From Frigidibacter sp. SD6-1 (lineage in GTDB: Bacteria > Pseudomonadota > Alphaproteobacteria > Rhodobacterales > Rhodobacteraceae): a stretch of DNA of 64,000 bases. Position numbers and translations under genes: made by a program. Below the pieces are notes generated by a model, which did not search any database, was not told the DNA's origin, and was given only the letters and a program-made list of their open reading frames with translations. Position 1 is the first letter of the stretch; each line of letters starts with the position of its first letter. Of this stretch, positions 27,241-48,780 are shown in pieces. The DNA is taken from contig NZ_JARJNR010000010.1 in the NCBI RefSeq assembly GCF_030143255.1, forward strand, positions 1 to 64,000. Reading direction: 5' to 3'.

Positions 27241-27281
27241 GACGGGAAGTGAGATCGGGAGAGTGGCTTCCGGCGCCCGTC
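27241..27281 (+). promoter_or_regulatory. structured leader, AGYGG hairpin class (copy A)
   Basis: An outer stem GACGGG/CCCGTC (27241-27246 with 27276-27281) encloses a 9-nt left bulge, an inner stem CGGGAG/CTTCCG with pentaloop AGTGG, and a 3-nt right bulge GCG. It lies 14 nt before the ATG of the large ParB-like gene. The same fold occurs at 46861-46905 and 48744-48780, with base changes that keep pairing. The gene association recalls the 'radC' RNA motif described in alphaproteobacteria. I cannot confirm the match without a covariance search. Confidence 0.7.
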
Positions 27282-27295
27282 GTGGAGAAGATCTG

Positions 27296-29467
27296 ATGGC
27301 GAAAGCAGCCCAGAAAATCACGCTGTCCCCCTCGCGGGACATCCCCTTCGACAAGCTCGTCCTGAGCCAGTCCAACGTACGGCGCATCAAGGCTGGCGTC
27401 TCAGTCGAGGAACTGGCCGAGGACATCGCGCGACGCGGGCTCTTGCAGGGATTGAACGTCCGGCCCATGCTCGATGCCGATGGGGTCGAGACCGGCATGT
27501 TCGAGATCCCGGCCGGTGGCCGCCGCTTCCAGGCGCTGTCGCTGCTGGTGAAGCAGAAGCGGCTGGCCAAGACCGCGCCGATCCCCTGCATCGTTCGGGA
27601 TGCCGCGTCGGATATCCTGCCCGAGGACGACTCGCTGGCGGAGAACATGCAGCGCGTCGCCCTGCACCCGCTGGATCAATTCCGCGCCTTCGTGGCTTTG
27701 CGCGAGAAGGGTCAGGGCGACGAAGCGATCGCGGCGGCCTTCTTCGTCACGCCCCAGATCGTGAAGCAGCGCCTGAAACTCGCGTCCGTGGCCCCTGCCC
27801 TTTTGGAAGTCTATGCCGAGGATGCCATGACGCTCGAGCAGCTGATGGCCTTCACGGTGAACCCGGATCATGCGCGTCAGGTGCAGGTCTGGGAAGCGGT
27901 GAAGAACTCCTGGAACAAGGAGCCCTATGCCATCCGGCGCATGCTGACCGAGGCCTCGGTTCGGGCTTCGGATCGTCGCGCGGTCTTCGTTGGTGTCGAT
28001 GCCTATGAGGCGGCGGGCGGTGTTGTCCTCCGTGATCTCTTCCAGGGCGACGACGGTGGCTGGCTGGAGGACCCTGCCCTGCTCGACCGCTTGGTCGCCG
28101 AGAAGCTCCAAGCTGAAGCCGAGGCTCTGGCCGCCGAGGGCTGGAAGTGGATCGAGGTCGCGACCGACCTGCCCTATGGCTACAGCCACGGTCTGCGGCG
28201 TCTGGCCGGTGATCCCGCCCCGATGACCGACGAGGAACGCGCGGCCCATGCGACGCTCCTCGCCAAGTATCGTGCGCTGGAGGAGGAGTACTCCGGCCAG
28301 GACGAATATCCCGAGGAGATCGATGCCCGGCTCGGTCAGCTCGAGATGGCGATGGAAGCGCTCGAGCAGCGGCCGCTGATCTACGATCCGGCCGAGGTCG
28401 GGCGCGCGGGCGTCTTCGTCACGCTTGATCGGGACGGCAGTCTCGCGGTGTATCGCGGCTATGTCCGGCCCGAGGACGAGCCGCGCGAGGAGACCGCGGT
28501 TCAGGATGCCGATGGTGCGGATGTCATGGGGCAGGGGGGTGATGTCGGTGTTTCCAGTTGGAAACCGTCGGCGACCTCCGCCGGGGGCACGGTCATCACC
28601 TCGGGTGGTCAGCCGATCGGTGCCGATCCGACCGAGGAGGACGATGACGGCGCGATGAAGCCGTTGCCCGAACGGCTGGTCATAGAATTGACCGCCCACC
28701 GGACCTTGGCGTTGCGTGAGGCCATCGGACGTTCGCCGGACGTCGCGCTGACGCTCCTGCTCCTGAAGCTGGTGACGGATACCTTCCGCACCTCCTCTGC
28801 CTCGGACAGTTGTCTCGAGGCCTCGGTGCGTCACGTCTACATGTCGGCGCAGGCGCCCGATCTGAAGGACAGCATCGTGGCGAAGCTGGTCGATGAGCGG
28901 CACGCCGCTTGGGAGGCCGATCTGCCTCTTGGTGACGATGCCGCGCTCTGGGACTATCTGACGGTCCTCGACCAGGGCAGCCGTCTGGCTCTGCTGGCGC
29001 ATTGCCTCAGCTTTGGGATCAACGCGCTCCATGAGAAGGTGAACCCCTATGGTGCGGGCATCTCCGCCAACGGTCTGACGCGCCGCATGGCCCATGCCGA
29101 TCTGGTGGCCCGCGCAGTCGATCTCGACATGGTCGAGGCTGGTTGGGAGCCGACGGTCGATGGCTACCTCAACCGCGTGCCCAAGGCTCGGATCCTCGAG
29201 GCCGTGCGCGAGGCGAAGGGGGAGGGGACCGCGCAACTTCTCGATCACCTGAAGAAGGGCGAAATGGCGACCGAGGCCGAGCGGCTTCTCAAGGGCAGCG
29301 GCTGGTTGCCCGAGGTCCTGCGCCGGGTCGATCTCGCAGCGCGCGACGGCGAGGCGATCGCAGAAGGGCAGGGGGAGGATGCGGCAGAACCCGAGGATGT
29401 CGATCTCCCGGCTTTCCTGACGGCTGATTTGCCCGACGGCAATGCGTCGATGATGGCGGCAGAGTGA
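27296..29467 (+). CDS. large ParB-like nuclease-domain protein
   Basis: A 723-residue protein with an N-terminal ParB/sulfiredoxin domain: 'LVLSQSNVRRIKAGVSVEELAEDIARRGLLQGLNVRP', the GxRR box 'IPAGGRRFQALSLL' and 'LAENMQRVALHPLDQFRAF', then an HTH 'GDEAIAAAFFVTPQIVKQRLKLA'. The long acidic C-terminus (about residues 300-723) has no named domain. Proteins of this kind are common accessory ParB homologues on alphaproteobacterial plasmids and islands, distinct from RepB. The ATG at 27296 follows GGAGAAG and the structured leader. Confidence 0.88.
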   Translation: MAKAAQKITLSPSRDIPFDKLVLSQSNVRRIKAGVSVEELAEDIARRGLLQGLNVRPMLDADGVETGMFEIPAGGRRFQALSLLVKQKRLAKTAPIPCIVRDAASDILPEDDSLAENMQRVALHPLDQFRAFVALREKGQGDEAIAAAFFVTPQIVKQRLKLASVAPALLEVYAEDAMTLEQLMAFTVNPDHARQVQVWEAVKNSWNKEPYAIRRMLTEASVRASDRRAVFVGVDAYEAAGGVVLRDLFQGDDGGWLEDPALLDRLVAEKLQAEAEALAAEGWKWIEVATDLPYGYSHGLRRLAGDPAPMTDEERAAHATLLAKYRALEEEYSGQDEYPEEIDARLGQLEMAMEALEQRPLIYDPAEVGRAGVFVTLDRDGSLAVYRGYVRPEDEPREETAVQDADGADVMGQGGDVGVSSWKPSATSAGGTVITSGGQPIGADPTEEDDDGAMKPLPERLVIELTAHRTLALREAIGRSPDVALTLLLLKLVTDTFRTSSASDSCLEASVRHVYMSAQAPDLKDSIVAKLVDERHAAWEADLPLGDDAALWDYLTVLDQGSRLALLAHCLSFGINALHEKVNPYGAGISANGLTRRMAHADLVARAVDLDMVEAGWEPTVDGYLNRVPKARILEAVREAKGEGTAQLLDHLKKGEMATEAERLLKGSGWLPEVLRRVDLAARDGEAIAEGQGEDAAEPEDVDLPAFLTADLPDGNASMMAAE

Positions 29468-29535
29468 TCTGAGCCATCCGGGGGGGCGGGGGTGCCCGCC
29501 CCCTATCTCACAAAATACAGCAATATCAATACGAT

Positions 29536-29555
29536 GAATGCGAATATTCGCATTC
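29536..29555. promoter_or_regulatory. perfect 20-bp palindrome
   Basis: GAATGCGAATATTCGCATTC is a perfect inverted repeat centred 24 bp upstream of the ATG at 29569, in a short AT-rich island. It is a strong operator candidate, though as transcript it could also form a 9-bp stem just ahead of the GAGGA ribosome site. Confidence 0.65.
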
Positions 29556-29568
29556 GGGATGAGGAATC

Positions 29569-30042
29569 ATGTCTGCAACAACCATCATCGACACAGCCCC
29601 TCTCGGGGCGCTCATTCGCTACACCGACGGCAGTCCCAAGCCGCCGGCACGGTTCACGAAGAAGCTCGCGGCCTGGGAGCGTTCGAACGGCGTCGGTCGA
29701 CTCGTGAAGAAAGAGCCGCCCCGGGTCTATCTGACCTGGACCGCTCCGGCCTCCTTCACGCTGCATGAGGGGAATTTCTCCTCGGACGGGGTCATCCTCG
29801 TCACCATCATGCGCAGCCACTCGGCGGACAGCCGGCTGGTATTCGAGGTCGACGAGGAGCCGAAGCCCGGGCAGGTCCGCGTACTCCTGGACTTCGGAGG
29901 CAACACCGAGCTGCTGCATCTTGCGGAGTCGATCACCGCGGCCGAGCTCTGGATCGCGCGGGAGGGCTACCGAAACGCGCGGCTCGAGATCGTCGGTGCC
30001 GAGGACGGCGATAGGGCAGGGGGCGCGGACCTGGCCGCCTGA
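29569..30042 (+). CDS. plasmid accessory protein of unknown function
   Basis: A 157-residue soluble protein starting MSATTIIDTAPLGAL, preceded by GAGGAATC. The middle ('RVYLTWTAPASFTLHEGNFSSDGVILVTIMRSH') looks like beta strands and the end is 'ESITAAELWIAREGYRNARLEIVG'. No named family was recognised. It lies between the large ParB-like gene and a GC-rich terminator at 30056-30087, so it is probably transcribed alone from the palindrome promoter or with the parB-like gene. Confidence 0.7.
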   Translation: MSATTIIDTAPLGALIRYTDGSPKPPARFTKKLAAWERSNGVGRLVKKEPPRVYLTWTAPASFTLHEGNFSSDGVILVTIMRSHSADSRLVFEVDEEPKPGQVRVLLDFGGNTELLHLAESITAAELWIAREGYRNARLEIVGAEDGDRAGGADLAA

Positions 30043-30055
30043 GCCCTGACAAGGC

Positions 30056-30087
30056 GTGAGGGGCCCACCCATGTGCGGGCCCCTCAC
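30056..30087. terminator. terminator-like hairpin after 29569-30042
   Basis: GTGAGGGGCCC pairs perfectly with GGGCCCCTCAC (11 bp) around a 10-nt loop, 13 bp after the stop codon. No T-tract follows, so its ability to end transcription is uncertain. Confidence 0.6.
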
Positions 30088-30383
30088 CGACCACAAGAAC
30101 CTCGTCCCGCGATGCCGCGGGGCGCAGAGTTATCCATCCCCCAATTCGGAGGTTTTCAACCAAGAGTCTGCCCGGGAGGTTGGCGGCGTTAGCAACATCA
30201 GCGGGACAATTGGCTCCAGTCGTCAGGGCACCTCCCCCGCTCGCCATTCCCTTCCTTGCCCCGAACCCTGTCTTCGAGATCAACCCGCGAGGGGTCGGAC
30301 TACGGGCGAGCCCGTGCCGCCGGGTGGATTCGGGCAAGCCGAACGCACCCGGTGATGTCAGCCAGTCTTCGGGCCTGCGGGGT
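30088..30383. other. non-coding stretch before the small-protein leader
   Basis: About 300 bp with no convincing gene. Open frames on either strand lack ribosome sites and known sequence. It probably holds the promoter of the 54-residue protein at 30433. Confidence 0.4.
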
Positions 30384-30422
30384 CCTGTCGCGCGGGGGAT
30401 GGTCCCCCGCCTCCAAGACAGG
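30384..30422 (+). promoter_or_regulatory. structured leader with GGTCCC hairpin overlapping the ribosome site
   Basis: An outer stem CCTGTC/GACAGG (30384-30389 with 30417-30422) encloses a strong 8-bp stem GCGGGGGA/TCCCCCGC with a 3-nt loop TGG. The 3' arm of the outer stem contains the first bases of the AGGAG ribosome site (30420-30424) of the gene at 30433, so folding would restrict translation. A related element precedes ssb at 36300-36328. Confidence 0.6.
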
Positions 30423-30432
30423 AGCCAAACAG

Positions 30433-30597
30433 ATGTCCCGTAAAGATGCTCACGCTTTCGCCGCCTCCCTCGCCGCCACGCTGATGGTCTCGATCGTCGT
30501 CTTCCAGGCAGGGGATGGAACCTTCGGCGCCGTCCCCGCCGATGAAATCGACGGCGACGAGGTCGTGATCGTCTCGGAATACGATCCCTTCGGGTGA
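30433..30597 (+). CDS. 54-residue small protein
   Basis: A short protein with an N-terminal hydrophobic segment 'AFAASLAATLMVSIVVFQAG' that could be a signal anchor, followed by an acidic tail 'ADEIDGDEVVIVSEYDPFG'. The ATG is preceded by AGGAG and by a structured leader, which supports expression. No family was recognised. The acidic C-terminus ending in PFG resembles, only superficially, protein-interaction tips such as that of SSB. Confidence 0.6.
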   Translation: MSRKDAHAFAASLAATLMVSIVVFQAGDGTFGAVPADEIDGDEVVIVSEYDPFG

Positions 30598-30700
30598 GGC
30601 TTCGGCCTCACTTCCCAAGGGCCCGGGCACGGCGCTGGTGCGCCTCCGGGCCTATCGCCGACCGAGTGGCCTTGCGCCGATCAAATGGACGGTCATCGAA

Positions 30701-31366
30701 CTATTGCGCGCCTGCCATCAATGGCAGGCCATCCTCGCGCCATTCCGGCAAACCGCCGTCAAGGCGGCGCGCATTGAGGCCGTGTTTGCGAAGTGCGGCG
30801 ACAGCCTGGTGGGCATAGATGCAATAGGGGCCCCTGCAATAGGCCACGATTTCGGTGGCCGGATCGAGCGTCGGGACGATCCGCTCGATCTCCGTCAGCG
30901 CCATGTTGAGCGCACCCGGAATGTGGCCCGCGGCGTATTCGTCGGCCGGCCTCACGTCGAGCACGGTGACGGAGCCTTCCGCGAGCCGTGCGGCGAGGTC
31001 CGCGCGGCTGACGGCTTCGGGGGCGTCCTTGCCGCCTGAAAGCCCTCGCAGGATACGCTCGACTTGCGCGAGGTTCCGTTCTGCCACGATGCGCAGCAGA
31101 TCCATCAGCGCGAGTGTCTTGGCATCGGTCAGCCGATAGATCACTGCCTTGCCGTCGCGGCGGCTGGTGACGAGAGCGGCGCGGCGCAGCTGTTGCAGAT
31201 GCTGCGAGCAGTTGGCGATCGTGAGGCCTGTCTTGTCCGCAAGTGCCTCCACCCCGCGTTCGCCTTGCGCGAGTTGTTCCAGCAGCATCAGACGCGCCGG
31301 TGCTGATAAGGCGCGTGCGACGAGGGCATATTCCTCCAGCAGGGCCAACTTCGGGCTGATTGACAA
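30701..31366 (-). CDS. ArsR-type regulator fused to a rhodanese domain
   Basis: A 221-residue two-domain protein. Residues about 10-95 form an ArsR winged helix ('VARALSAPARLMLLEQLAQGERGVEALADKTGLTIANCSQHLQQLRRAALV'). Residues about 115-215 form a rhodanese domain with active-site loop 'CRGPYC'. The fusion suggests direct sensing of sulfane sulfur or persulfide. It is divergent from the sulfur-transfer genes at 31455-34714 and is probably their repressor. A second cysteine lies in the DNA-binding domain (ANCSQH). Confidence 0.9.
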   Translation of the reverse strand: MSISPKLALLEEYALVARALSAPARLMLLEQLAQGERGVEALADKTGLTIANCSQHLQQLRRAALVTSRRDGKAVIYRLTDAKTLALMDLLRIVAERNLAQVERILRGLSGGKDAPEAVSRADLAARLAEGSVTVLDVRPADEYAAGHIPGALNMALTEIERIVPTLDPATEIVAYCRGPYCIYAHQAVAALRKHGLNARRLDGGLPEWREDGLPLMAGAQ

Positions 31367-31454
31367 GGCCTGTCTCCTGACGCTAGATCATTCAAGCGAT
31401 AACTTGAATAATAGCGATTCCATCGCGCCCCACAAGCCCCAAGGCCAGCGATCC

Positions 31455-32318
31455 ATGTCCGAGACCATCCTTGCCACCGAGGCGACCATCCGTCTTGCCA
31501 TCTTTCTGGGTGTTCTGGCGGGCATGGCGCTGTGGGAAGTGGCGGCCCCGCGGCGCAGGCGAGAAATCCCGCGCGTCATCCGTTGGACGAACAACCTTGC
31601 TCTGGTGGTGGTGGATACGGTCATCCTGCGGCTGAGTTTTCCGATCCTCGCGGTCGGTCTGGCCGTCATGGCCGAGGATCGTGGCTGGGGCCTGTTCAAC
31701 AATCTCGATGTGCCAGTTTGGGTCGCAATCATCGTCTCGATGCTGCTGCTCGATCTGGCGATCTACCTTCAGCACGTGATGTTCCACGCCGTGCCCGGGC
31801 TCTGGCGGCTGCACCGGATGCACCACGCCGATCTCGATTTCGACGCGACCACGGGACTGCGTTTCCATCCCGTGGAGATCCTCATTTCCATGGGGATCAA
31901 GCTGGCGGTGGTCGCGGCGCTCGGCCCCCCCGCCGTCGCGGTGCTACTGTTCGAGGTGATCCTGAACGCCACCGCGCTTTTCAACCACGCCAACATCGAC
32001 CTGCCGCGCCCGGTGGACCGCGTGCTGCGCCTCATCGTCGTGACGCCGGACATGCACCGCGTCCACCATTCCACCGACCCGCGCGAGACCAACTCGAACT
32101 ACGGCTTCAACCTGCCGTGGTGGGACAGGCTCCTCGGCACCTACATCGCCCAGCCCGCCAAGGGACACGAGGGGATGGAGATCGGCATCGAGCAGTTCCG
32201 GACACGCCGCGATCTCTGGCTCGACCGGATGCTGGTCCAGCCGCTGCGCGGACCGGCATCGGGCCATGCGCTCGATCCCCGGAACACGACAAGGAGCCCG
32301 CAGAATGACCGCAAGTGA
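31455..32318 (+). CDS. sterol desaturase/fatty acid hydroxylase family protein
   Basis: A 287-residue membrane protein with the di-iron histidine boxes of the family: 'HVMFH', 'LHRMHH', 'FNHANI' and 'MHRVHHS'. Four membrane segments are visible. These enzymes insert oxygen into lipid chains. In Rhodobacteraceae a copy often accompanies MFS, DsrE and rhodanese genes, but its link with sulfur metabolism is unclear. The ATG at 31455 gives the compact N-terminus. The end overlaps the MFS gene by 14 bp. Confidence 0.85.
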   Translation: MSETILATEATIRLAIFLGVLAGMALWEVAAPRRRREIPRVIRWTNNLALVVVDTVILRLSFPILAVGLAVMAEDRGWGLFNNLDVPVWVAIIVSMLLLDLAIYLQHVMFHAVPGLWRLHRMHHADLDFDATTGLRFHPVEILISMGIKLAVVAALGPPAVAVLLFEVILNATALFNHANIDLPRPVDRVLRLIVVTPDMHRVHHSTDPRETNSNYGFNLPWWDRLLGTYIAQPAKGHEGMEIGIEQFRTRRDLWLDRMLVQPLRGPASGHALDPRNTTRSPQNDRK

Positions 32319-33609
32319 ATTCACGCGCGGCATCCGCGAGAATAGGGTCCAGGTCGCGCATCAGCTGATCCAGGTGATGCTGGTGGGTTTCGCCATCGGC
32401 ATGACTCGCACGGTGGTCCCGGCGCTGGCCGAGAGCGAGTTCGGGCTCGAGCGCGGCTCGTTCCTGCTGCTGGCGTCCTTCGTCGTGGCCTTCGGTGCGG
32501 TCAAGGCGGTGATGAACTTCGTCGCCGGGCGCTGGTCCGAGCGGATCGGTCGCAAGCGGGTGCTGGCCTTCGGTTGGGTCATGGCGCTGCCGATCCCGGT
32601 GATGATCTGGTACGCGCCCGACTGGAACTGGATCGTCGCGGCGACCGTGCTGCTGGGCGTCAACCAGGGCCTCTGCTGGTCGATGACGCAGACCGCGAAA
32701 CTCGACATCACGCGCGCCGAGGAACGCGGCCTCACCATGGGGCTCAACGAGTTCTCCGGCTATGTCGGCGTGGCAATCGCAGGCATCCTCACCGCATATG
32801 CCGCGGAAGGGCTGGGCGCGCGGACGGGCCTGCTGGTCTTTGGCATGGCCGTGGTCCTGCTGGCGCTGATCCTGACCGTGGTCTGGGTGAAGGACACGCT
32901 GCCTTGGGCCAAGGCCGAGACGGCCGCGCACAAGGCAGCACCCCCGAAATCCCTGCCGCGTTATCCGCAGGGCAGCTCCGAACACCCGACGACGCGCGAG
33001 GTCTTCGCGCTGATGAGCTGGCGCGACCGGCGGCTCTTCGCGATCTCCCAGGCGGGGCTGGTCGAGAAGTTCGTCGATGCGCTGGTCTGGGCGCTGTTCC
33101 CGGTCTTCCTTGTGACCCAAGGCGCGACCCTGACCGAGGTCGGCTGGATCGTCGGCACCTATGGTTTCGTCTGGGGCGGCTCGCAGCTCTTCACCGGGCG
33201 GCTGTCGGACCATGTGGGCCGCTTCTGGCCCAACGTGCTCGGCATGTGGATCTGCGGCGCGGGCGTGGCGATGGTGGTCATGGGCACGGGCGCGCTCTGG
33301 TGGTCGGTCTCGGCCGGGGTGGCGGGCTTCGGCATGGCGCTTCTCTATCCGAACCTCTCGGCGGCGGTTGCGGACATCACCCCGCCGGCCTGGCGCGGCT
33401 CGGCCATCGGCATCTACCGCTTCTGGCGCGACCTCGGCTACGCCATCGGCGCGCTCGGCCTCGGGCTAGCGGCCAGCCTGACCGGCGCTGCGGAAGCGGC
33501 CTTCTGGTTCGTCGCGATCTCCATGTTCGTCTCCGGCGGCCTGCTCTTCTGGCTCGGCGAGGAGACGCACCCGCGTCTCAACCCCGCCACCCAAGAGGCC
33601 CCTGCATGA
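32305..33609 (+). CDS. MFS transporter
   Basis: A 434-residue major facilitator with 12 predicted membrane segments and the loop motif 'GRWSERIGRKRVLAFG' between helices 2 and 3, plus the repeat 'GRLSDHVGRFWPNVLG' in the second half. The central cytoplasmic loop (about 205-245) is charged. The substrate is unknown. The neighbourhood of DsrE and rhodanese genes suggests a sulfur compound. AAGGAGCC precedes the ATG at 32305, inside the previous gene's end. Confidence 0.88.
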   Translation: MTASEFTRGIRENRVQVAHQLIQVMLVGFAIGMTRTVVPALAESEFGLERGSFLLLASFVVAFGAVKAVMNFVAGRWSERIGRKRVLAFGWVMALPIPVMIWYAPDWNWIVAATVLLGVNQGLCWSMTQTAKLDITRAEERGLTMGLNEFSGYVGVAIAGILTAYAAEGLGARTGLLVFGMAVVLLALILTVVWVKDTLPWAKAETAAHKAAPPKSLPRYPQGSSEHPTTREVFALMSWRDRRLFAISQAGLVEKFVDALVWALFPVFLVTQGATLTEVGWIVGTYGFVWGGSQLFTGRLSDHVGRFWPNVLGMWICGAGVAMVVMGTGALWWSVSAGVAGFGMALLYPNLSAAVADITPPAWRGSAIGIYRFWRDLGYAIGALGLGLAASLTGAAEAAFWFVAISMFVSGGLLFWLGEETHPRLNPATQEAPA

Positions 33610-33959
33610 AACACCTGATCCTGCTGAACGACCCACCCTACGGAACCGAGCGCAGCTTCAACGGCCTGCGCATGGCCTACGCACTGGCGAAGAACGATCC
33701 CGAGGCGGATATCACCGTCTTCCTGATGGCCGACGCGGTGCTCTGCGCCAAGGCGGGGCAGAAGACGCCCGATGGCTACTACAATCTCGAGCGCATGCTC
33801 CGCCGGGTCCTGTCCGCCAAGGGGCGCGTCCTGATGTGCGGCACCTGCCTGGACGCGCGCGGCCTTGCAGAGGGCGACATGATGGAGGGGACGAGCCGCT
33901 CCACAATGGACGAACTCGCCCAAGCGACGCTGGCCGCCGACAAGGTCCTGGTGTTCTGA
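33606..33959 (+). CDS. DsrE-family sulfur-transfer protein
   Basis: A 117-residue protein with the DsrE/TusD fold ('HLILLNDPPYGTERSFNGLRMAYALAKN', 'ITVFLMADAVLCAKAGQ', 'RVLMCGTCLDARGL'). The cysteine in 'MCGTCLDARG' is at the position used for persulfide transfer. It is overlapped by 4 bp with the MFS gene and by one base with the rhodanese gene that follows, so sulfur would be passed between DsrE and rhodanese. Confidence 0.9.
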   Translation: MKHLILLNDPPYGTERSFNGLRMAYALAKNDPEADITVFLMADAVLCAKAGQKTPDGYYNLERMLRRVLSAKGRVLMCGTCLDARGLAEGDMMEGTSRSTMDELAQATLAADKVLVF

Positions 33960-34255
33960 TGGCCGGGATGCTTACGCTCGCCGCCCTCGCGGCCGACCCG
34001 GATCGCTTCCACCTGATCGACGTCCGCGACGCGGAAGACTTCGTCGCCGCCCATTTGACGGGCGCCGTCCATATCCCGCTGGCCGAACTCGAAGACCGGG
34101 CGGGAGAACTTCCTGCTGGCAGAACACCCGTGACCATCTGCGGCAAGGGCGGCGGTCGGTCGGCAGAGGGCGCGGATGTCCTGAACAGGCTCGGCCACCC
34201 GGACGCCCTATGGCTCGAAGGCGGCACGATCGGCTGGCTTGCGCAGAACACCTGA
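33959..34255 (+). CDS. single-domain rhodanese
   Basis: A 98-residue cytoplasmic rhodanese with 'FHLIDVRDAEDFVAAHLTGAVHIPL' and the active-site loop 'ICGKGGGRSAEGA' carrying the catalytic cysteine. Its start shares a base with the stop of the DsrE gene (TGATG). It is the probable sulfur donor or acceptor partner of DsrE. Confidence 0.9.
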   Translation: MAGMLTLAALAADPDRFHLIDVRDAEDFVAAHLTGAVHIPLAELEDRAGELPAGRTPVTICGKGGGRSAEGADVLNRLGHPDALWLEGGTIGWLAQNT

Positions 34256-34288
34256 ACACCAAGAAACCGAAACGGAGGAGACCCCCGG

Positions 34289-34714
34289 ATGACCCTGAAG
34301 CACCTACTTTTGGCGACAACCGTCGCGCTCGGGATGCACACATTGCCCGCCTTTGCGCAGGACGCGGCTATCGACGCCATGCAGGAATACATGATGTTCT
34401 CGGAATACGAGGCCGGCATCATCCTGCCCCAGCAACTCGACCAGACCGTCTTCGAGACCGCGCTTTTCGTCGACACCCGGGACGCTGGCCAGTTCGAGGC
34501 AGGCACGATCCCCGGCGCAGTCAACATCGAGTGGCGCGAAGTGCTGGACCGCATCGACGAGATCCCCGAGGATCGGATGACCATCCTGTTCTGCAACACC
34601 GGCAGCCTGTCGGCGCAGGCGGCCTTCGCGCTGCGTGTTGCGGGCAGGTCGAACGTGGTCGTCATGCAGACCGGCTTCACAGGCTGGCAGCAGGACGCGG
34701 CCTACAGACCCTGA
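34289..34714 (+). CDS. periplasmic rhodanese-like protein
   Basis: A 141-residue exported rhodanese with a signal peptide ending 'LPAFAQDA' and the active loop 'FCNTGSLSAQAA' with the catalytic cysteine. 'LFVDTRDAGQFEAGTIPGAVNIEW' is the CH2 N-terminal motif. It would handle sulfane sulfur in the periplasm, complementing the cytoplasmic rhodanese and DsrE. GGAGGAG precedes the ATG at 34289. Confidence 0.88.
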   Translation: MTLKHLLLATTVALGMHTLPAFAQDAAIDAMQEYMMFSEYEAGIILPQQLDQTVFETALFVDTRDAGQFEAGTIPGAVNIEWREVLDRIDEIPEDRMTILFCNTGSLSAQAAFALRVAGRSNVVVMQTGFTGWQQDAAYRP

Positions 34715-34770
34715 TCCGTTAACCCCTCGGTCGGGTGATGGCCCGCTGGGCCCGCCTCGCAGGAAACACC

Positions 34771-41701: not shown

Positions 41702-42357
41702 ACCGCCGCACCCTTCTGATCGGAGCCTCTGCGCTTGGCCTTGCCGCCTTCGCGGGTGGCGCCTACGTGCTGAACCAGCGCCGCGCCGCCGAGGCAGAAG
41801 TGGCGGCCGCTGCCGCGCCAACAGCCGATCAGGCACTACTGATCCGGGACTACTCCCCCAGCTTCGGTCCTGCCGATGCGCCCGTCACACTGGTTGAATT
41901 CTTCGATCCGTCCTGCGAGGCCTGCCGCGCCTATCACCCGGTGGTGCAAGAGATCCGGCGGCAGTTTCCGACTCAGGTCCGGGTCGTGCTGCGCTATACC
42001 GTCTTCCACGAAGGCTCGGACGAAGCCGTGCGCATCCTTGAGGCTGCACGGATGCAGGACAAGTTCGAGCCGGTACTGGATGCGCTGCTGGAACAGCAAC
42101 CGGGCTGGGCCGTGCATGGTTCGCCGCAGCTGGACGTGGCCTGGGAAATCGCCGGGGCCGCGGGGCTCGATCTCGAAAGGGCGGAAAGCGACAAGCTCTT
42201 TCCGGGGATTACTGGCATCCTCAACCAGGACGCAGCCGACGTCGAAGCCTTGGCCATTCGACAGACGCCGACCTTCTTTCTGAACGGCAGGCGGCTGGAG
42301 AACTTCAGCGCAGACAGCCTGATCGCAGATGTGCGGTTTGCAATCGAGAACAGCTGA
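41698..42357 (+). CDS. DsbA-family thiol-disulfide oxidoreductase
   Basis: A 219-residue exported protein with a Tat-like or Sec signal ('[21 protein letters not shown]') and a thioredoxin fold with active site 'DPSCEACRAYHP' and the cis-proline region 'IRQTPTFFLNG'. This is the BdbD/DsbA type. It partners the DsbB homologue upstream, forming an oxidising pair probably serving cysteine-rich envelope proteins. Confidence 0.9.
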   Translation: MNRRTLLIGASALGLAAFAGGAYVLNQRRAAEAEVAAAAAPTADQALLIRDYSPSFGPADAPVTLVEFFDPSCEACRAYHPVVQEIRRQFPTQVRVVLRYTVFHEGSDEAVRILEAARMQDKFEPVLDALLEQQPGWAVHGSPQLDVAWEIAGAAGLDLERAESDKLFPGITGILNQDAADVEALAIRQTPTFFLNGRRLENFSADSLIADVRFAIENS

Positions 42358-42363
42358 TGCCGA

Positions 42364-42816
42364 TCAGGACCGATTGGCGAAGGCCGCGAAGAGCGCCAGC
42401 GTTCGTTCGCTGACGTGATGCTCGATGCCTTCGGCGTCGCGCTCTGCCGTCTCGGGGTCAAGGCCAAGGCTGATCAGGAACCGCAGCACGATCTCGTGCC
42501 GCCGCCGACATTCCTTGGCCAGCGCGCGGCCCGTGTCGGTCAGAAAGACCGACCGATACTTTGCGCGGGTGATCAGCCCTTCGCGCGCCAGCCGGTCGAG
42601 GGTCTTGCTGACCGTCGGCACCTTCACGCCAAGGCGGGTGGCGATGTCCACCGGGCGCGCCTCGCCCTGTTCGTGGATCAGCTCAGCGATCAGTTCGACA
42701 TAATCCTCGGCCAGTTCATTCCGCCGTGCCTCGCGCACGCCCTGAAACGCTTCGGTGCGCGGGTCTGCGGGGCCGTCGAGCGGCGCGGTGCGGGTGTCAG
42801 GGTGGAACTCGGTCAT
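42364..42816 (-). CDS. mntR: manganese-responsive regulator MntR
   Basis: A 150-residue DtxR/MntR-family repressor with a winged helix ('DYVELIAELIHEQGEARPVDIATRLGVKVPTVSKTLDRLAREGLI') and a metal/dimer domain ending 'GIEHHVSERTLALFAAFA'. It is divergent from mntH and should repress it when manganese is sufficient, through the dyad at 42868-42883. The first 25 residues are a variable extension. Confidence 0.9.
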   Translation of the reverse strand: MTEFHPDTRTAPLDGPADPRTEAFQGVREARRNELAEDYVELIAELIHEQGEARPVDIATRLGVKVPTVSKTLDRLAREGLITRAKYRSVFLTDTGRALAKECRRRHEIVLRFLISLGLDPETAERDAEGIEHHVSERTLALFAAFANRS

Positions 42817-42867
42817 CTGCAGAGTGTCGCATGGGATGGATTGACAAGTAAAGTCGCGGGACAGATT

Positions 42868-42883
42868 GTTAGCACTGTCTAAC
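42868..42883. promoter_or_regulatory. candidate MntR operator
   Basis: GTTAG-CACTGT-CTAAC, a perfect 5-bp inverted repeat with a 6-bp spacer, lies 55 bp upstream of the mntH ATG in the mntR-mntH divergent region. Position and symmetry suit an MntR site. Confidence 0.6.
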
Positions 42884-42937
42884 TTTATGCGCCACGTCTT
42901 GTCGGGATCGTGACGAAACCCGGGAGCGCCCTAAACC

Positions 42938-44263
42938 ATGTCCATCCCAGCCTGGCGACAAGAGCGCGAGACGCCCTCACTTTCCGAGGTCTTCCGCACC
43001 ATTGCGGTCGGCAACGGCGGCACCAGCCGGTTCCGCCGGTTCCTCGCCTTCATCGGCCCCGGCTATCTGGTGGCCGTGGGCTACATGGACCCCGGCAACT
43101 GGGCGACCTCGCTCGCCGGCGGGGCGGCCTTCGGCTACACGCTGCTGTTCGTAGCCCTTCTGTCGAACATCATGGCGATCCTCCTGCAATCGCTCTGCGC
43201 GCGGTTGGCGGTCGCCTCGGGTCGCGATCTGGCGCAGGCCTGTCGAGATGCCTTTCCGAAATGGATGTCGGTGCCCCTTTGGGTTTTCGCCGAGCTAGCC
43301 ATCATCGCCACCGATCTGGCCGAGGTGATCGGCACCGCCATCGGCCTGAACCTGCTGTTCGGCATCCCGCTGGAGATCGGCATCTTCATCACCGCCGCCG
43401 ACGTGTTCCTGATCTTGTGGCTGCAGAACAAGGGGTTCCGCTGGATCGAGGCGCTGATCATCTCGCTGATGGCACTGATCGCGGCCTGTTTTGTCGTGCT
43501 GATCGCGCAGTCCGATCCGGTCTGGGGCGACGTCATCGCCGGGTTCGCCCCGAGCCGTGAGATCGTCAGCAACCCGACCATGCTCTACCTTGCCCTTGGC
43601 ATCATCGGAGCCACGGTCATGCCGCATAACCTCTATCTGCATTCGGGCATCGTGCAGACCCGCGCCTTTGGCATGGACCTGCCCGCCAAGCGCGAGGCGT
43701 TGCGGTTGGCGACTTGGGACAGCACCATTGCGCTGATGTTCGCGTTGACGATCAATGCCTCGATCCTGATCCTTGCCGCTGCCGCCTTCTACACCGTCGG
43801 CGAAAATGACGTGGCCGAGATCGACAAGGCGCACCTGTTGCTGGAGCCGCTGCTGGGGTCGTCACTGGCGCCGGTCCTGTTCGGGGTGGCGCTTTTGTGC
43901 GCAGGCCTGAACTCCACTGTCACAGCCACGATGGCCGGGCAGATCGTGATGGAAGGCTTCATTCGGCTGCGCATCGCCCCCTGGGCGCGGCGGCTGATCA
44001 CCCGCGGCCTTGCCATCATCCCGGCGGTCTTCGTGATCCTGCTCTACGGCAGTGAGGGCGTGGGTGAGCTGCTGATCCTGAGCCAGGTGGTGCTGTCCTT
44101 CCAACTGCCCTTCGCCATCGTGCCTTTGGTCATGTTCACCGCCAGCCGCGCCAAGATGGGCGAACTGGTCGCCCCACGCTGGCTGACGGGCCTCTGCTGG
44201 TTGATCGCCGCCGTCATCATCGTGCTGAACGTGAACCTGTTGTCGACCGTGCTTTTGGGCTGA
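42938..44263 (+). CDS. mntH: Mn2+/H+ symporter (Nramp family)
   Basis: A 441-residue Nramp transporter with 11 membrane segments, the helix-1 metal-binding motif 'DPGNW' and the helix-6 motif '[10 protein letters not shown]', both essential for divalent-metal selection. '[19 protein letters not shown]' is the conserved later loop. It imports manganese, protecting against oxidative stress. The ATG at 42938 is the first with a good N-terminus. Confidence 0.94.
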
Positions 44264-44354
44264 CCCTTCACCCTTCGGTGAGAGCACGAATTCGGGCTTG
44301 AACCTCAAGCGGCTGGAGGTTTTAGACAGAGAGCAATAAACAGGCAGGTTACGG

Positions 44355-44948
44355 ATGCGGTTGACAAGGTTACAGAAAATCCTCTGGGCGGCGGCGGGAC
44401 TGGCCACGCTGGCCTATGGGCTGCTCGTGCTGTTGCCAAACCGCGCGTCGGAGGCTGTCCCGCAAGCCGCCTTCCGACCGACCTTCACGCTGCCGGATGC
44501 CGAGGGTCGGGTGCGCACCCCTGCCGAGTTTGCGGGCCAGCATCTTCTGGTCTTCTTCGGCTTCACCAACTGCCCGGACGTCTGCCCGACAACACTTTCC
44601 GAAGTGGCGCAGGTGATGGACGATCTGGGCGACGACGCTGCCCTTGTGCAGCCTCTGTTCATCTCGATCGATCCCGAGCGGGATCGCAGACTGGGGCTGG
44701 CCGAGTTCACTGCGGCGTTCCACCCGTCGATCATCGGGCTTGCCGGGGACGAGGCACAGACCCGCGCCGCGGCGGACAGCTTCCGCATCTTCTACGCGCG
44801 CGAGGGTGATGCCGCCGCCCCCGACGGCTACACCATGTCGCACAGCCCGGCGCTCTACCTCATCGGGCCCGAGGGTGACTGGCTGCGTCAGTTCACCTAC
44901 GGCACGCCCGCCACCGATATCCTTGCCGACCTTCAACCCAGATTGTGA
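44355..44948 (+). CDS. SCO1/SenC copper chaperone
   Basis: A 197-residue membrane-anchored thioredoxin-like protein with the copper motif 'CPDVCPTTL' and the later histidine in 'YTMSHSPALYLIG'. SCO proteins deliver copper to cytochrome oxidase or act as thiol reductases. It is the first of four copper-type genes in a row. It is preceded by a 91-bp gap that may hold a promoter. Confidence 0.9.
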   Translation: MRLTRLQKILWAAAGLATLAYGLLVLLPNRASEAVPQAAFRPTFTLPDAEGRVRTPAEFAGQHLLVFFGFTNCPDVCPTTLSEVAQVMDDLGDDAALVQPLFISIDPERDRRLGLAEFTAAFHPSIIGLAGDEAQTRAAADSFRIFYAREGDAAAPDGYTMSHSPALYLIGPEGDWLRQFTYGTPATDILADLQPRL

Positions 44949-44953
44949 CCGCC

Positions 44954-45424
44954 ATGAAATCCCTGATCCTCTCGGCCCTCCTCACCCTATCCGCCGCCCC
45001 CGTGCTGGCCTGCGAAACCTTCACCCTGGGCGATCTGAATATCGAACACGCCTGGTCCCGCGCCACCATCGGCGCGGACCGGCCGGGGGTATTCTATGTC
45101 GAGATCACCAACAACGGCAGCACAGATGATGCGCTGATCGGCATCGCGACCCCGGCTGCTGGCATGCCGATGCTGCACGAAACCGTGGTGACCGACGGCA
45201 TCGCCTCCATGCCACACGCCATGTCGATCCCGGTTCCGGCTGGCCAAACCGTCGAGCTGGCGCCCGGCGGCTATCATGGGATGCTGATGGGCCTGACCAC
45301 GACACTGGCCGAAGGCGACAGCTTCCCGGTGACACTCTCCTTCCAGAATGCCGGGGAAGTCGTCGTCAATGTCGAGGTTCTGTCGCTACGGGCGGAGGGT
45401 CCGGATTGCGACGACGCCAACTGA
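44954..45424 (+). CDS. PCuAC-type periplasmic copper chaperone
   Basis: A 156-residue exported protein with a signal peptide ending 'APVLACE'. The copper motif of the family is visible: 'MPMLHETVV', a methionine/histidine pair 'SMPHAMSI' and 'YHGMLMGL'. PCuAC binds Cu(I) and passes it to SCO and the oxidase CuA site. It ends overlapping the second SCO gene. The ATG at 44954 was chosen over an upstream GTG. Confidence 0.9.
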   Translation: MKSLILSALLTLSAAPVLACETFTLGDLNIEHAWSRATIGADRPGVFYVEITNNGSTDDALIGIATPAAGMPMLHETVVTDGIASMPHAMSIPVPAGQTVELAPGGYHGMLMGLTTTLAEGDSFPVTLSFQNAGEVVVNVEVLSLRAEGPDCDDAN

Positions 45425-46005
45425 TCCTTGGTCTGGGAGGCGCGAGCGGTGCATTGGCCTTCACGCTCGGCCTCGGCTGGTTGCAAAGCCGCGGCCGCGC
45501 GCAGCCGCCCGCCGCGCTTCTGCCACTGCCCATCGGCGAGATGGGCTTTGCCCTGACCAACCATCGCGGTGAACCGGTGCGCCCGGCAGACTGGATCGGC
45601 CGCCCGACCATGGCCTTCTTCGGCTTCACTTGGTGCCCCGATGTCTGCCCAACCACCCTCAGCGACATCTCGGGCTGGCTGGATGAGCTCGGGCCCGACG
45701 CCGACCGGCTGAACACCGTCTTCATCACCGTCGATCCCGAACGGGATACACAGCAAGTTCTGGCCGACTACCTGGCAAACTTCGATCCACGGATCACCGG
45801 CCTGACCGGCCCGCTGGCCGAGGTCGAACGCGCCGTCGCAGGCTTCCGCGCCCGGTTCGAAAAGGTGCCCCGCGACGGGGATTACACCATGGACCACACT
45901 GCCGGTGTGTTCCTGTTCCGCGCCGATGGGCGCTTTGCCAGCATCATCGACTACCACGAGGACCGCCGCTTCGCCCTGCCGAAGATACGCAGGGTTCTGA
46001 CCTGA
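45406..46005 (+). CDS. second SCO1/SenC copper chaperone
   Basis: A 199-residue protein with an N-terminal anchor ('LILGLGGASGALAFTLGLGW'), 'CPDVCPTTL' and the histidine in 'YTMDHTAGVFLF'. It starts with TTG at 45406, which has GGAGGG 7 bp upstream and overlaps the PCuAC gene by 19 bp. Two SCO copies flanking a PCuAC gene suggest paired delivery of two coppers or separate redox and metal roles. Confidence 0.88.
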   Translation: MRRRQLILGLGGASGALAFTLGLGWLQSRGRAQPPAALLPLPIGEMGFALTNHRGEPVRPADWIGRPTMAFFGFTWCPDVCPTTLSDISGWLDELGPDADRLNTVFITVDPERDTQQVLADYLANFDPRITGLTGPLAEVERAVAGFRARFEKVPRDGDYTMDHTAGVFLFRADGRFASIIDYHEDRRFALPKIRRVLT

Positions 46006-46031
46006 CAGCCACACCTGTTCCGGAGAGCCAC

Positions 46032-46508
46032 ATGACCAACACGCCCCTTCTGACCCGCCGCACAATGCTGCTGTCCGGCCTCGCCGTCGCGACTTTCGCG
46101 GCCAGTCCGGTGCGCAGCGCGGGCCCGTCGATCCATGTCGTAAAGGGAACCGGCTGCGAATGCTGCAACGCCTGGGTCGCCTATCTTCGGGACGAGGGTT
46201 TCACCGTGACGGACGAGGAGCGCTACGGCACGCTCCTGATGACCTACAAGGCCGAAGTGGGTGTGCCTCAAAGAATGATCTCCTGCCACACAGGGATGAT
46301 CGAGGGCTATGTGCTCGAAGGCCATGTCCCTGCGGCCGATATCCGGCGCCTGCTCGAGGAGCGGCCGGACGCGATCGGGCTTGCCGTGCCTGGGATGCCC
46401 TATGGATCGCCCGGCATGGGACCGGAGGACAGCCGCGAGGCCTACGACGTCCTGCTGATCGGCCGCGATGGCTCAACCGAGGTCTTCACCCGCTATCTGG
46501 CCGCCTGA
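46032..46508 (+). CDS. DUF411 copper-associated protein
   Basis: A 158-residue protein with a twin-arginine signal ('TRRTMLLSGLAVATFAAS') and the DUF411 core: 'IHVVKGTGCECCNAWVAYLRDEGF', 'VPQRMISCHTGMIEGYVLEGHVPA' and 'GLAVPGMPYGSPGM'. The cysteines and methionines fit metal binding. It completes the copper set. Confidence 0.88.
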   Translation: MTNTPLLTRRTMLLSGLAVATFAASPVRSAGPSIHVVKGTGCECCNAWVAYLRDEGFTVTDEERYGTLLMTYKAEVGVPQRMISCHTGMIEGYVLEGHVPAADIRRLLEERPDAIGLAVPGMPYGSPGMGPEDSREAYDVLLIGRDGSTEVFTRYLAA

Positions 46509-46527
46509 CAATTGTGTCGCCCGTGCT

Positions 46528-46806
46528 TCATGCCGCCTTCGGCCAACGGCGATGCAGGGTGTCGATGAAGACGGCATGGGTGTGGTGGGGCCCGTGTTCC
46601 GACAGGTGGAGATAATCGGCGGACAGGTCAGGAAGGTCGTGCCGCAAGAACGTCTGATCGTTCGCGGGCCAGAGGCGCAGCACCGCAACGAGGCCAGCCG
46701 CGCCGATGAGCGCCGTGACGCACAGACCGGGCACCGGCGCCGATCCCGCCGGCCAGCGGGTAGGTGACCAGCCAGCAGGCGCGCGAGAGGGCGAAGCTGC
46801 CATTCA
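46528..46806 (-). pseudogene. broken C-terminal remnant of an MFS transporter
   Basis: The minus strand encodes, in one frame, 'SFALSRACWLVTYPLAGG', and a few codons later in another frame 'GLCVTALIGAAGLVAVLRLWPAND' and a histidine-rich tail 'HHTHAVFIDTLHRRWP'. The pieces read as the last helices and cytoplasmic tail of an MFS transporter joined by a frameshift near 46725-46745. The 5' part of the gene is absent. It marks a junction between the metal cargo and the accessory core. Confidence 0.6.
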
Positions 46807-46860
46807 TGATGACCTTAGCGACTGACCGCCTTCTAGAGTGAGAGGAGTGCCGGTTTCCCG

Positions 46861-46905
46861 GTGACGGGTTAAAGGCTCGGGAGAGTGGCTCCCGGCGCCT
46901 GTCAC
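46861..46905 (+). promoter_or_regulatory. structured leader, AGYGG hairpin class (copy B)
   Basis: An outer stem GTGACGGG/CCTGTCAC (one wobble) encloses a 9-nt left bulge, an inner stem CGGGAG/CTCCCG with pentaloop AGTGG, and a right bulge GCG. The fold matches copy A, with a G-U pair replaced by G-C in the inner stem. It ends 12 nt before the ATG of the DUF932 gene, over the GGGAG ribosome site region. Confidence 0.7.
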
Positions 46906-46917
46906 GGGAGATAGCCG

Positions 46918-48117
46918 ATGGGCGTTGTGGAAGTTCTGGATCCGGTCGCGCCGGCGCGAGCCGGTGGCTGGAAGGTGGATGTGAGCCGGGGTGAGCGGAA
47001 CGGGCGAGTGTCGTCCGAATGGTTCAACCGCCCCGACGACGAGCGGTATCTGTCGCTCGACGATCTCTGGGCCAATGTGAAGGGTCGGTCCGAGCGCAGC
47101 CGCAGCCGGGTGGTGCAGACGGCGGACATCCGAGTCGAGGCCGCGCGCGACAGCGCCGAGCGGCTACATCTGGTCCTGCCGAAAGCACATGAACCGGTGG
47201 CACCTACGCACTGGGCCTTCGGCCAGCTTGCCAGCATCGTCGGCGCACCGGCCTCCTACCTGCGGCAACTGCCCGCGCCACTGGCGGGGATCAACCTGCA
47301 ATACGGCCTAACCAACCACCGCGCAGAGCAGGTGAAGACCTTCGAGACCGAGGATGGCCGCACTGAATTGCGCGCGGTGACTGGCCCCGACTACGGCCGC
47401 ATCCATGACCACGAACTGGTCGAGGCGGTGCAGCGCATCGCGGGCAATGGCACCGGCGACACGCGCTGGAAGGTGCCGGGCGTGCTCGACTGGTCGACCG
47501 GGGTCTACAACCCAGATGTCGAGATCAGCCGCGACACGACCACGCTTTATGCCTCTGACCGCGATGTCTTCCTGTTCCTGGTCGACGATCACAATCCGAT
47601 CGAGGCGGGCCGCCTGCCTGATGGCTCCCCTGATCTCTACTTCCGGGGCTTCTATTGCTGGAACTCCGAGGTCGGGGCCAAGACACTCGGCATGGCGAGC
47701 TTCTACCTGCGGGCCGTCTGCCAGAACCGCAACCTCTGGGGCGTCGAAGATTTTCAGGAGATCAAGATCCGCCACTCGAAATACGCCGCCTCGCGCTTCG
47801 CCCATGAAGCGGCCCCGGCGCTGACCCGTTTCGCTAATTCCTCGCCGCAGGGTTTCGTGAACGGCATCAAGGCCGCGCGGCAGCAGATCGTCGCGCGGAC
47901 GGATGAGGACCGGGATGACTTCCTTCGCAGGCGCGGCTTCTCGAAGGCCGAGTCGGGCAAGATCATCGAGAAGGTGTTGATGGAAGCGGGCCGCCCGCCG
48001 GAGAGCATCTTCGACTTCGTGCAGGGCATCACGCGGTTGGCGCGCGACAAGACCCAGCAGGATGCTCGCCTCGACATGGAAGGGCGCGCGAAGAAGCTCC
48101 TCGACCGGGTCGGCTGA
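46918..48117 (+). CDS. DUF932 plasmid accessory protein
   Basis: A 399-residue protein of the DUF932 (phage/plasmid-like, LGT_TM32-type) family, recognised by 'LVLPKAHEPVAPTHWAFGQLASIVGAPASYLRQLPAPL', 'VTGPDYGRIHDHELVEAVQRI', 'YASDRDVFLFLVDDHNPIEAG' and 'FYLRAVCQNRNLWGV'. Such proteins are near universal on large alphaproteobacterial conjugative elements. Their function is unknown, though they occur with anti-restriction and repair genes. It is the first gene of the accessory core and carries the structured leader. Confidence 0.85.
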   Translation: MGVVEVLDPVAPARAGGWKVDVSRGERNGRVSSEWFNRPDDERYLSLDDLWANVKGRSERSRSRVVQTADIRVEAARDSAERLHLVLPKAHEPVAPTHWAFGQLASIVGAPASYLRQLPAPLAGINLQYGLTNHRAEQVKTFETEDGRTELRAVTGPDYGRIHDHELVEAVQRIAGNGTGDTRWKVPGVLDWSTGVYNPDVEISRDTTTLYASDRDVFLFLVDDHNPIEAGRLPDGSPDLYFRGFYCWNSEVGAKTLGMASFYLRAVCQNRNLWGVEDFQEIKIRHSKYAASRFAHEAAPALTRFANSSPQGFVNGIKAARQQIVARTDEDRDDFLRRRGFSKAESGKIIEKVLMEAGRPPESIFDFVQGITRLARDKTQQDARLDMEGRAKKLLDRVG

Positions 48118-48134
48118 CGCCGGGGCCCGCCACA

Positions 48135-48161
48135 GCGACCGCCCGCATGCGCGGCGGTCGC
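48135..48161 (+). terminator. terminator-like hairpin after the DUF932 gene
   Basis: GCGACCGCC and GGCGGTCGC pair perfectly (9 bp) around a 9-nt loop, 18 bp after the stop codon, followed by GCTTTCCCC. It separates the DUF932 transcript from radC. Confidence 0.65.
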
Positions 48162-48243
48162 GCTTTCCCCTTCCACAGGCACGCCAGTTGCCCCGTCCCG
48201 ATAGGGCAGGGGGCTTCGGCCTGCGCAATTCAGCGAAACCCCC

Positions 48244-48684
48244 ATGACCCCCCAGGAAGAAACCGTCATCCTCGAGGCCCGTGATATCCTCGGCCGCTAT
48301 CTCAGCCAGAACCCCGTCATTGGCAGCTGGCAGGCGCTGATGGACTATTGTGCTCTGACCGTCCGAGGTCCCAACGAGCGGTTCCATGTCCTCTATCTTG
48401 ACCGCAAGAACCGCGTCATCTCCGATGAGCGTCTCTCGACCGGCACGGTTGATCATGTCCCGGTCTATCCGCGCGAGGTGATCAAGCGGGCGCTGATGCT
48501 GAATGCCAGCGCCCTGATCCTGATCCACAACCACCCGTCAGGCGATCCGACGCCCTCGGAGGCCGATCTCGGCATGACCAAGGAGATCCAGAAGGGGTGC
48601 AAGTATCTTGGTCTGATGCTGCACGATCATATCATAGTCGGGGCCGGGACCGAGCTGAGCCTGCGGGCCCTCGGCAAGCTCTGA
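48244..48684 (+). CDS. radC: RadC-family JAB-domain protein
   Basis: A 146-residue protein containing the complete JAMM/MPN+ metalloprotease-like domain: 'HVLYLDRKNRVISDERLSTGTVDHVPVYPREVIKRAL' and the zinc motif 'HNHPSGDPTPSEAD'. It lacks the N-terminal HhH region of chromosomal RadC, as in plasmid and phage versions. The biochemical role of RadC is not settled. Confidence 0.93.
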   Translation: MTPQEETVILEARDILGRYLSQNPVIGSWQALMDYCALTVRGPNERFHVLYLDRKNRVISDERLSTGTVDHVPVYPREVIKRALMLNASALILIHNHPSGDPTPSEADLGMTKEIQKGCKYLGLMLHDHIIVGAGTELSLRALGKL

Positions 48685-48743
48685 GGGCCCATCGGACCCA
48701 TCACCGCTGCCCCTTCGAGGAAGAGGGCGGCGGTTTGGTCTTT

Positions 48744-48780
48744 GACGGATGAGGCGGGGAGAGCGGCTTCCCGCGCCGTC
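48744..48780 (+). promoter_or_regulatory. structured leader, AGYGG hairpin class (copy C)
   Basis: An outer stem GACGG/CCGTC encloses a 6-nt left bulge, an inner stem CGGGGAG/CTTCCCG with pentaloop AGCGG, and a 2-nt right bulge. It lies 12 nt before the ATG at 48793 and immediately before the GGAG ribosome site. Pairing is kept although the inner stem is one pair longer than in copies A and B. Confidence 0.7.

Follow-up and report, generated by a model that had tools for sequence, protein, structure and literature searches.

Hairpin leader RNAs shared by plasmid genes of Alphaproteobacteria, with predicted pairing to the ribosome site

Three leaders on a repABC plasmid-like contig

The window analysed here is a 64,000-nucleotide (nt) stretch of Frigidibacter sp. 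SD6-1 DNA (contig NZ_JARJNR010000010.1, positions 1-64,000; contig C1 in our analysis). It is repABC plasmid-like, with ParA-, RepB- and RepC-like genes at 23379-27117, and it carries three similar hairpin elements, A, B and C, upstream of a large ParB-like gene, a DUF932-like gene and a 172-amino-acid (aa) gene that we call P172 (Table 1). The original prediction, made from the sequence of the window, had described three hairpins here, each with an outer GACGG-type stem, an inner stem and an AGYGG loop, and had placed them before the ParB-like, DUF932 and 48793 genes. Sequences of this kind are present at all three positions, outer GACGG/CYGTC stems and AGYGG loops could be located in every copy, and the three genes follow as described, their families recurring downstream of the element in other contexts.

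Using a covariance model, R1, whose 12 source sequences include the three window copies themselves, we found copy A at an expect value (E) of 2.3e-11 and the other two at 6.9e-10 and 7.0e-10 (51.6-58 bits), the next-best place in the window having an E of 0.44. By contrast, the bare core GGGAGAGYGGCTYCC, allowing up to three mismatches, gave 12 window matches vs 15.4 expected, which is not significant, indicating that the significance comes from the whole architecture rather than from the short sequence. Across the genome, the exact core occurs five times, on contigs C1, C5 and C8, along with a one-mismatch copy on C5, and R1 at E 0.01 returned the same six copies (three on C1, two on C5 and one on C8). 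We also used an extended model, R2; an R2 match at 49317-49393 (E 0.0037) was set aside because it lies inside a gene. The radC gene between copies B and C had been said to lack a copy, and indeed neither R1 at E 10 nor R2 at E 1 matched anything in 48118-48243.

Table 1. Positions of the leaders, their parts and the associated genes in the window
Feature	Position	Strand	Details
Leader A (box, spacer, hairpin, ribosome site), 5' of the large ParB-like gene	27212-27298	+	R2 61.7 bits; R1 58 bits, E 2.3e-11
Leader A, core hairpin	27241-27281	+	outer stem 27241-27245/27277-27281; loop 27262-27266
Leader A, Shine-Dalgarno	27284-27287	+	
Large ParB-like gene, 3' of repC	27296-29467	+	723 aa; Pfam ParB_N at its threshold
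Leader B, 5' of the DUF932 gene	46834-46920	+	R2 79.3 bits
Leader B, core hairpin	46863-46903	+	outer stem 46863-46867/46899-46903; loop 46884-46888
Leader B, Shine-Dalgarno	46906-46910	+	predicted pairing to upstream sequence
DUF932-like gene	46918-48117	+	399 aa; Pfam DUF932 21.3 bits, below the 23-bit threshold
radC gene, between B and C, without a copy	48244-48684	+	Pfam RadC
Leader C, 5' of the 172-aa gene	48715-48795	+	R2 58.3 bits; R1 51.6 bits
Leader C, core hairpin	48744-48780	+	outer stem 48744-48748/48776-48780; loop 48762-48766
Leader C, Shine-Dalgarno	48781-48784	+	
P172 gene	48793-49311	+	172 aa; no Pfam or NCBIfam match
Probable divergent fourth leader, 5' of the strawberry-notch helicase gene	53776-53855	+	R2 24.9 bits, E 5.4e-5
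Strawberry-notch helicase gene	53869-58230	+	1453 aa; Pfam AAA_34, Helicase_C_4

Anatomy and distribution of the leader family

To describe the family we applied R1 to two sets of 100 loci, one from genome and plasmid searches and the other drawn from 118 loci found with a sequence pattern, obtaining 125 and 132 matches that reduce to 231 distinct contexts and 150 distinct elements. Among the 100 pattern loci, 97 held an R1 match and three (L091, L110, L121) held none; a partial match at L058 is probably due to chance. All five outer pairs are present in 90 of the 97 pattern-bearing elements, though the pattern did not demand them, and the loop reads AGAGG, AGTGG or AGCGG in 135 of the 150 distinct elements (two of which could not be scored, being too short). 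Conservation extends beyond the core: the unit comprises a purine box, the GACGG hairpin and its AGNGG loop and, in most cases, a predicted extra helix to the Shine-Dalgarno sequence. Upstream conservation starts about 27 nt 5' of the hairpin with the purine box (AGAG-NN-AGAG); further upstream, little is conserved other than in P172 and ArdC copies. In 181 of 198 contexts, 16-18 nt separate the end of the box from the element (146 at 17, 16 at 16 and 19 at 18); two contexts have the box elsewhere and 15 lack it. On the other side, a Shine-Dalgarno-like sequence precedes 209 of 218 downstream open reading frames (ORFs), and in 184 of the 218 the chosen start lies 11-14 nt past the end of the element. 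The purine box, the pairing to the ribosome site and the probable fourth copy were all additional to the original prediction.

A coding origin was rejected: an in-frame stop lies between the element start and the first ATG in 90 of 212 contexts, and the lengths spread over all three frames (95, 75 and 42). A full Rfam scan of the window gave no family at threshold and none over the elements at E 10, and eight plasmid loci (L172-L179, seven of them with an R1 match) gave no Rfam family at E 1. We take the elements to belong to a single family of 5' leader RNAs, each about 85 nt long, that is absent from Rfam 15. The element is not described in the open-licence PMC titles and abstract openings that we surveyed. 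Some leaders carry more: in several ArdC leaders (L211, L229, L172, L185) and two DUF932 leaders (L202, L216), a further conserved block with a GCGGGGAGACCCCGC-like hairpin lies directly 5' of the box. A GATC-GATC pseudoknot suspected by eye in copies of one ParB subgroup, ParB-A, which includes window copy A, was discarded, its downstream side changing without compensation in several copies.

We found an ORF of at least 50 aa downstream of the element in 218 of the 231 contexts, the remaining 13 having none, in some cases because the contig or locus ends. These ORFs comprise 92 large ParB genes, 62 DUF932 genes, 40 members of the 172-aa family, 18 genes for the antirestriction protein ArdC and six others, so that four gene families follow 212 of the 231 contexts. 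The six others are four broken DUF932 genes (L192, L194, L196, L104), which keep an intact-looking leader, one different gene (L224) and the chance locus L058. Neighbouring classified copies pair as DUF932-P172 (22), ArdC-ParB (7), DUF932-ParB (6) and two other combinations (one each), always on the same strand, and opposite strands occur in one of 61 neighbouring pairs among raw R1 matches (L274). None of the 22 DUF932-P172 pairs has a third copy in between, where radC sits in the window. Of 149 family genomes, 22 encode a DUF932 protein, and 19 of these 22 carry the element (Fisher p 6e-15); the three without it (G286, G304, G319) have partial protein matches only.

The original prediction had proposed a plasmid search with a covariance model, and R1 finds further copies on plasmids of other genera. 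Blast searches with the three leaders, run at permissive E limits (1, 10 and 10) and counting weak matches, returned 153, 83 and 229 plasmid records. Eight matches beyond the nearest relatives were examined, and seven (L172-L178) held an R1 match: one each from Ketogulonicigenium, Mesorhizobium, Bradyrhizobium, Sinorhizobium and Sphingobium and two from Methylobacterium; the Roseomonas locus (L179) had none. In five of these seven the annotated gene after the element is ParB-like or a zincin-like metallopeptidase (ArdC), while the Bradyrhizobium record has no gene annotated directly after the element and the Sinorhizobium record is without annotation. At E 0.01 or below, R1 matches occurred in 27 of 149 family genomes, 19 of 289 class genomes and 20 of 249 phylum genomes, in draws that overlap and each include the Frigidibacter genome itself; all 20 positives of the phylum draw are labelled as the same class or the same family. 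R2 matched 33 of 385 class genomes, several of the weakest matches lying inside unrelated genes. A pattern search of viral contigs yielded 15 stretches that were judged coincidences by eye, none having a completed outer stem with a fitting gene.

The probable fourth leader ends 13 nt before the ATG of the strawberry-notch (Sno) helicase gene and has a box, GAGAGGGAGAG, and a different outer stem, GATCAGGCC/GGCCTGATC. Similar DNA occurs on other plasmids, 5' of Sno genes in those fetched. Among 14 such Sno leaders, three (L335, L337, L336) match R2 at E 5e-6 to 4e-4, seven more match weakly (E 0.003-0.16) with a box-like sequence kept by eye, and four (L328, L332, L333, L334) gave no convincing R2 match; a Sno gene in a further genome has an R2 match at E 1.8e-7 (L341). 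In three genomes R2 also places copies (E 7e-9 to 9e-8) 5' of a gene of 120-128 aa. Weak R2 matches with a box-like sequence, at L338:4130-4211 (E 2e-4) and L342:4463-4544 (E 0.004), precede two genes whose products look like staphylococcal-nuclease relatives. Six of 38 loci with R2 matches (L350-L355) have no fitting gene start and look like chance. The leaders of the Sno, 120-128-aa and nuclease-like genes are probably relatives rather than proven members of the family.

Several further features lie beside the leaders and their genes. Two TTCACAGCTGTGAA palindromes, presumably akin to repABC centromere sites, stand between repC and leader A at 27121-27180, and a perfect TT-N10-AA palindrome lies within 100 nt upstream in 37 of 54 ParB-A contexts. 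Leader C overlaps an imperfect GC-rich inverted repeat 3' of radC (48704-48733, CCGCTGCCC/GGGCGGCGG) that has the purine box in its loop and T-rich sequence after it, and that could be a terminator or attenuator. The 172-aa family has a conserved C-terminal part, and a structure model of P172 (AlphaFold, predicted local distance difference test 81) gave no PDB fold match at E 0.001. One ORF (L229:481-1488, minus strand) begins as ArdC and continues into other sequence, which we take to resemble a conjugation ATPase, a possible fusion or deletion. An MmeI-like restriction-modification enzyme gene lies at 61034-63724 of the same contig.

Covariation, strand and predicted ribosome-site pairing

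The stems had been said to keep pairing through different bases, and the homologues bear this out. When 41 diverse leaders were aligned by sequence only, blind to structure, 88.3% of cells proved to be paired and 47 to be changed on both sides vs 19.9 in shuffles, with a covariation score that 0 of 500 shuffles reached; sliding the 3' side lowered the paired cells to 39-47%. Among 95 distinct cores aligned with the covariance model, an alignment that leans towards the model, 96.2% of cells are paired and changes on both sides affect nine of the 13 pairs (0 of 500 shuffles). The variants seen include GACAGG/CCTGTC and GACGAG/CTCGTC in the outer stem and CGAGAG/CTCTCG and CGCGAG/CTCGCG in the inner stem.

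To determine which strand carries the fold, we compared G-U with A-C mismatches. Because the search pattern fixes part of the inner stem, counts for this stem were taken from the set not chosen by pattern, where levels 1-5 of 44 distinct stems gave 26 G-U vs 6 A-C (30 vs 6 over 49 stems once the pattern set was added). Over the core cells of the structure-blind alignment the counts were 51 vs 18, with nine pairs favouring G-U and four A-C; these cells are not independent, and collection by covariance model favours G-U. The excess of G-U places the fold on the mRNA (coding) strand, the opposite of a template-strand DNA structure.

The outer stem is predicted to extend into an extra helix formed with the Shine-Dalgarno sequence. 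Outside ParB-A, 138 of 149 leaders (ArdC 16/17, DUF932 50/57, P172 38/38, non-A ParB 34/37) have a pairing probability above 0.5 for the Shine-Dalgarno core in single-sequence ensembles. For samples of up to 25 leaders per group and a slightly shorter stretch, the counts were 15/16 for ArdC, 22/25 for DUF932, 19/25 for P172, 22/24 for non-A ParB and 3/25 for ParB-A, and shuffling only the upstream flank in samples of this size lowered mean pairing outside ParB-A from 0.82-0.85 to 0.35-0.50. Swapping flanks across families also weakened the extra helix (-10.0 observed vs -9.1 swapped), with 0 of 200 swaps reaching the observed value.

Several results weigh against a leader that works by sequestering its ribosome site. 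In ParB-A, the Shine-Dalgarno sequence is paired in only 14 of 49 leaders, and pairing there is unaffected by the upstream shuffle (0.26-0.27; 3/25 sampled vs 10/100 shuffled). The complete pairing of P172 leaders falls to the 19/25 given above on the shorter stretch. Swaps within families often reach the observed duplex energy (of 200, ArdC 68, P172 65, ParB 28, DUF932 8 and ParB-A 139; with shorter flanks, ArdC 28, P172 17, all ParB 3 and DUF932 23), and the covariation of the extra helix lies mostly between gene families and not within them, in a collection that, being based on a covariance model, leans towards paired sequences. In the 41-leader alignment, 11 of 21 pairs are changed on both sides, a count that two of 500 shuffles and the +1 slide also reach. 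In free folding, the described core is present in the minimum-energy fold of copy B and lies 2.5 kcal/mol above the minimum in copy C, but in copy A an alternative fold is favoured over it by 7.7 kcal/mol (-29.3 vs -21.6 kcal/mol), so that the structure of copy A rests on homology. ParB-A leaders thus keep the core where the ribosome site is predicted to be open, suggesting either that they may be gated differently, for example by an alternative fold, or that sequestration would not be the whole function.

Competing explanations and a possible plasmid regulon

Among the features computed here (conservation of sequence and structure, covariation, strand of the fold, position, gene set and predicted ribosome-site pairing), position, strand, covariation and pairing argue for translational gating by a leader RNA, and the conservation of loop and box suggests that something else recognises them. 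We favour, with slightly better than even confidence, a leader RNA that gates the translation of plasmid-establishment genes under a shared trans factor. In a transcript running through the element, the purine box would be followed, after a spacer of nearly constant length, by a long hairpin whose internal loop is conserved and whose apical loop reads AGNGG. Outside ParB-A, the base of this hairpin would capture the Shine-Dalgarno sequence in most members, and because of this capture the folded state should block ribosome entry. A shared trans-acting factor, perhaps an RNA-binding protein and less likely a small ligand, might read the loop, the internal loop or the box, shifting the balance between closed and open states. 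The ParB-like, DUF932, ArdC, P172 and probably Sno helicase genes would then be switched together at translation when the plasmid establishes itself; we infer this recognition and its timing at plasmid entry.

Translational operators and other leaders that sequester the ribosome site are known, in which pairing of a hairpin with the Shine-Dalgarno sequence is expected to control access of the ribosome. The elements resemble these in having a covarying mRNA-strand structure just 5' of the start codon and, outside ParB-A, a Shine-Dalgarno sequence predicted to be paired, but differ from them in occurring in several copies shared by unrelated plasmid genes across Alphaproteobacteria. Such a structure could also act alone, as an insulator or default-off leader that keeps long read-through transcripts untranslated, the translated form being a shorter transcript or an alternative fold and no trans factor being involved; fold-back inhibition of this kind acts on some transposase genes. 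The predicted sequestration outside ParB-A and the presence of a separate copy at each neighbouring gene would suit this explanation, which we consider unlikely, the loop and purine box being conserved beyond the needs of pairing alone. We think it similarly improbable that the hairpin is an mRNA stability or processing element, shielding the 5' end or serving as a nuclease entry site with ribosome-site pairing secondary: the ParB-A copies, retaining the core mostly without Shine-Dalgarno pairing, speak for it, but the extra helix, together with a start codon at an almost constant distance, points to translation initiation.

In single-stranded promoters of the Frpo type, the promoter structure forms on the template (transferred) strand. 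If the elements were such promoters, they would fire from the entering plasmid strand, and their gene set does resemble the early anti-defence plasmid genes described in PMC11541004. Like the Frpo/ssi elements of conjugative plasmids treated there, they are repeated structured elements before plasmid genes presumed to act early. The excess of G-U over A-C is, however, on the sense strand (26:6 and 51:18), the reverse of what template-strand structure would give, and the element abuts the ribosome site, making this explanation, judged by strand and position, very improbable. The STAXI motif likewise lies near DNA-handling and antirestriction genes as a structured element, but consists of repeated pseudoknots (PMC2864571), where the present element is a leader with one hairpin, placed at an almost constant distance from the start codon.

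The original prediction had suggested that the elements may belong, or be related, to the Rfam radC motif RF01754, a candidate structured RNA of Proteobacteria that figures in a table row and a reference of Weinberg et al. 2010 (PMC2864571), and had proposed scoring that family against the copies. A radC gene does lie between copies B and C. However, the Rfam scans, RF01754 included, gave no match over the elements (E 10) or in the eight plasmid loci (E 1), and the best RF01754 score in the Frigidibacter genome is 23.6 bits against a gathering threshold of 40, with none on C1, C5 or C8 among the 16 matches listed. RF01754 is a model of 149 positions, whereas the elements here have a 42-nt core hairpin, an AGNGG loop and a purine box and precede ParB, DUF932, ArdC and 172-aa genes rather than radC. 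We regard membership as extremely improbable, the least likely of these explanations. A search of 190 alphaproteobacterial genomes with RF01754 at E 0.001 gave no match, but neither did the control genomes, so this does not establish the absence of the family. Of the original prediction, the part that conserved, covarying leaders mark a set of plasmid genes is supported, and membership of the radC motif is not.

These genes, which may aid a plasmid in establishing itself in a new cell, look like one co-controlled set because they share a folded leader that in most cases is predicted to hide the ribosome site. Discussion of early plasmid genes usually centres on promoters. The set recalls the early plasmid genes and polyvalent-protein genes of PMC11541004 and PMC5512222, a resemblance that motivates the plasmid-entry idea; the main text of neither paper mentions DUF932. 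A broader proposal, which we hold tentatively and consider less likely than not, is a class-wide, plasmid-borne RNA regulon in which one RNA-binding protein or ligand would read the AGNGG/purine-box leader and coordinate, upon entry of a plasmid or integrated element into a new alphaproteobacterial cell, the translation of ParB-like, DUF932, ArdC, P172 and Sno-helicase genes, amounting to zygotic control at translation and not at transcription. If true, the shared leader RNA would be a further layer timing antirestriction and partition-like genes across many alphaproteobacterial plasmids, its co-regulation would link DUF932 and P172 to genes of known role, and the search for the trans factor would become directly testable.

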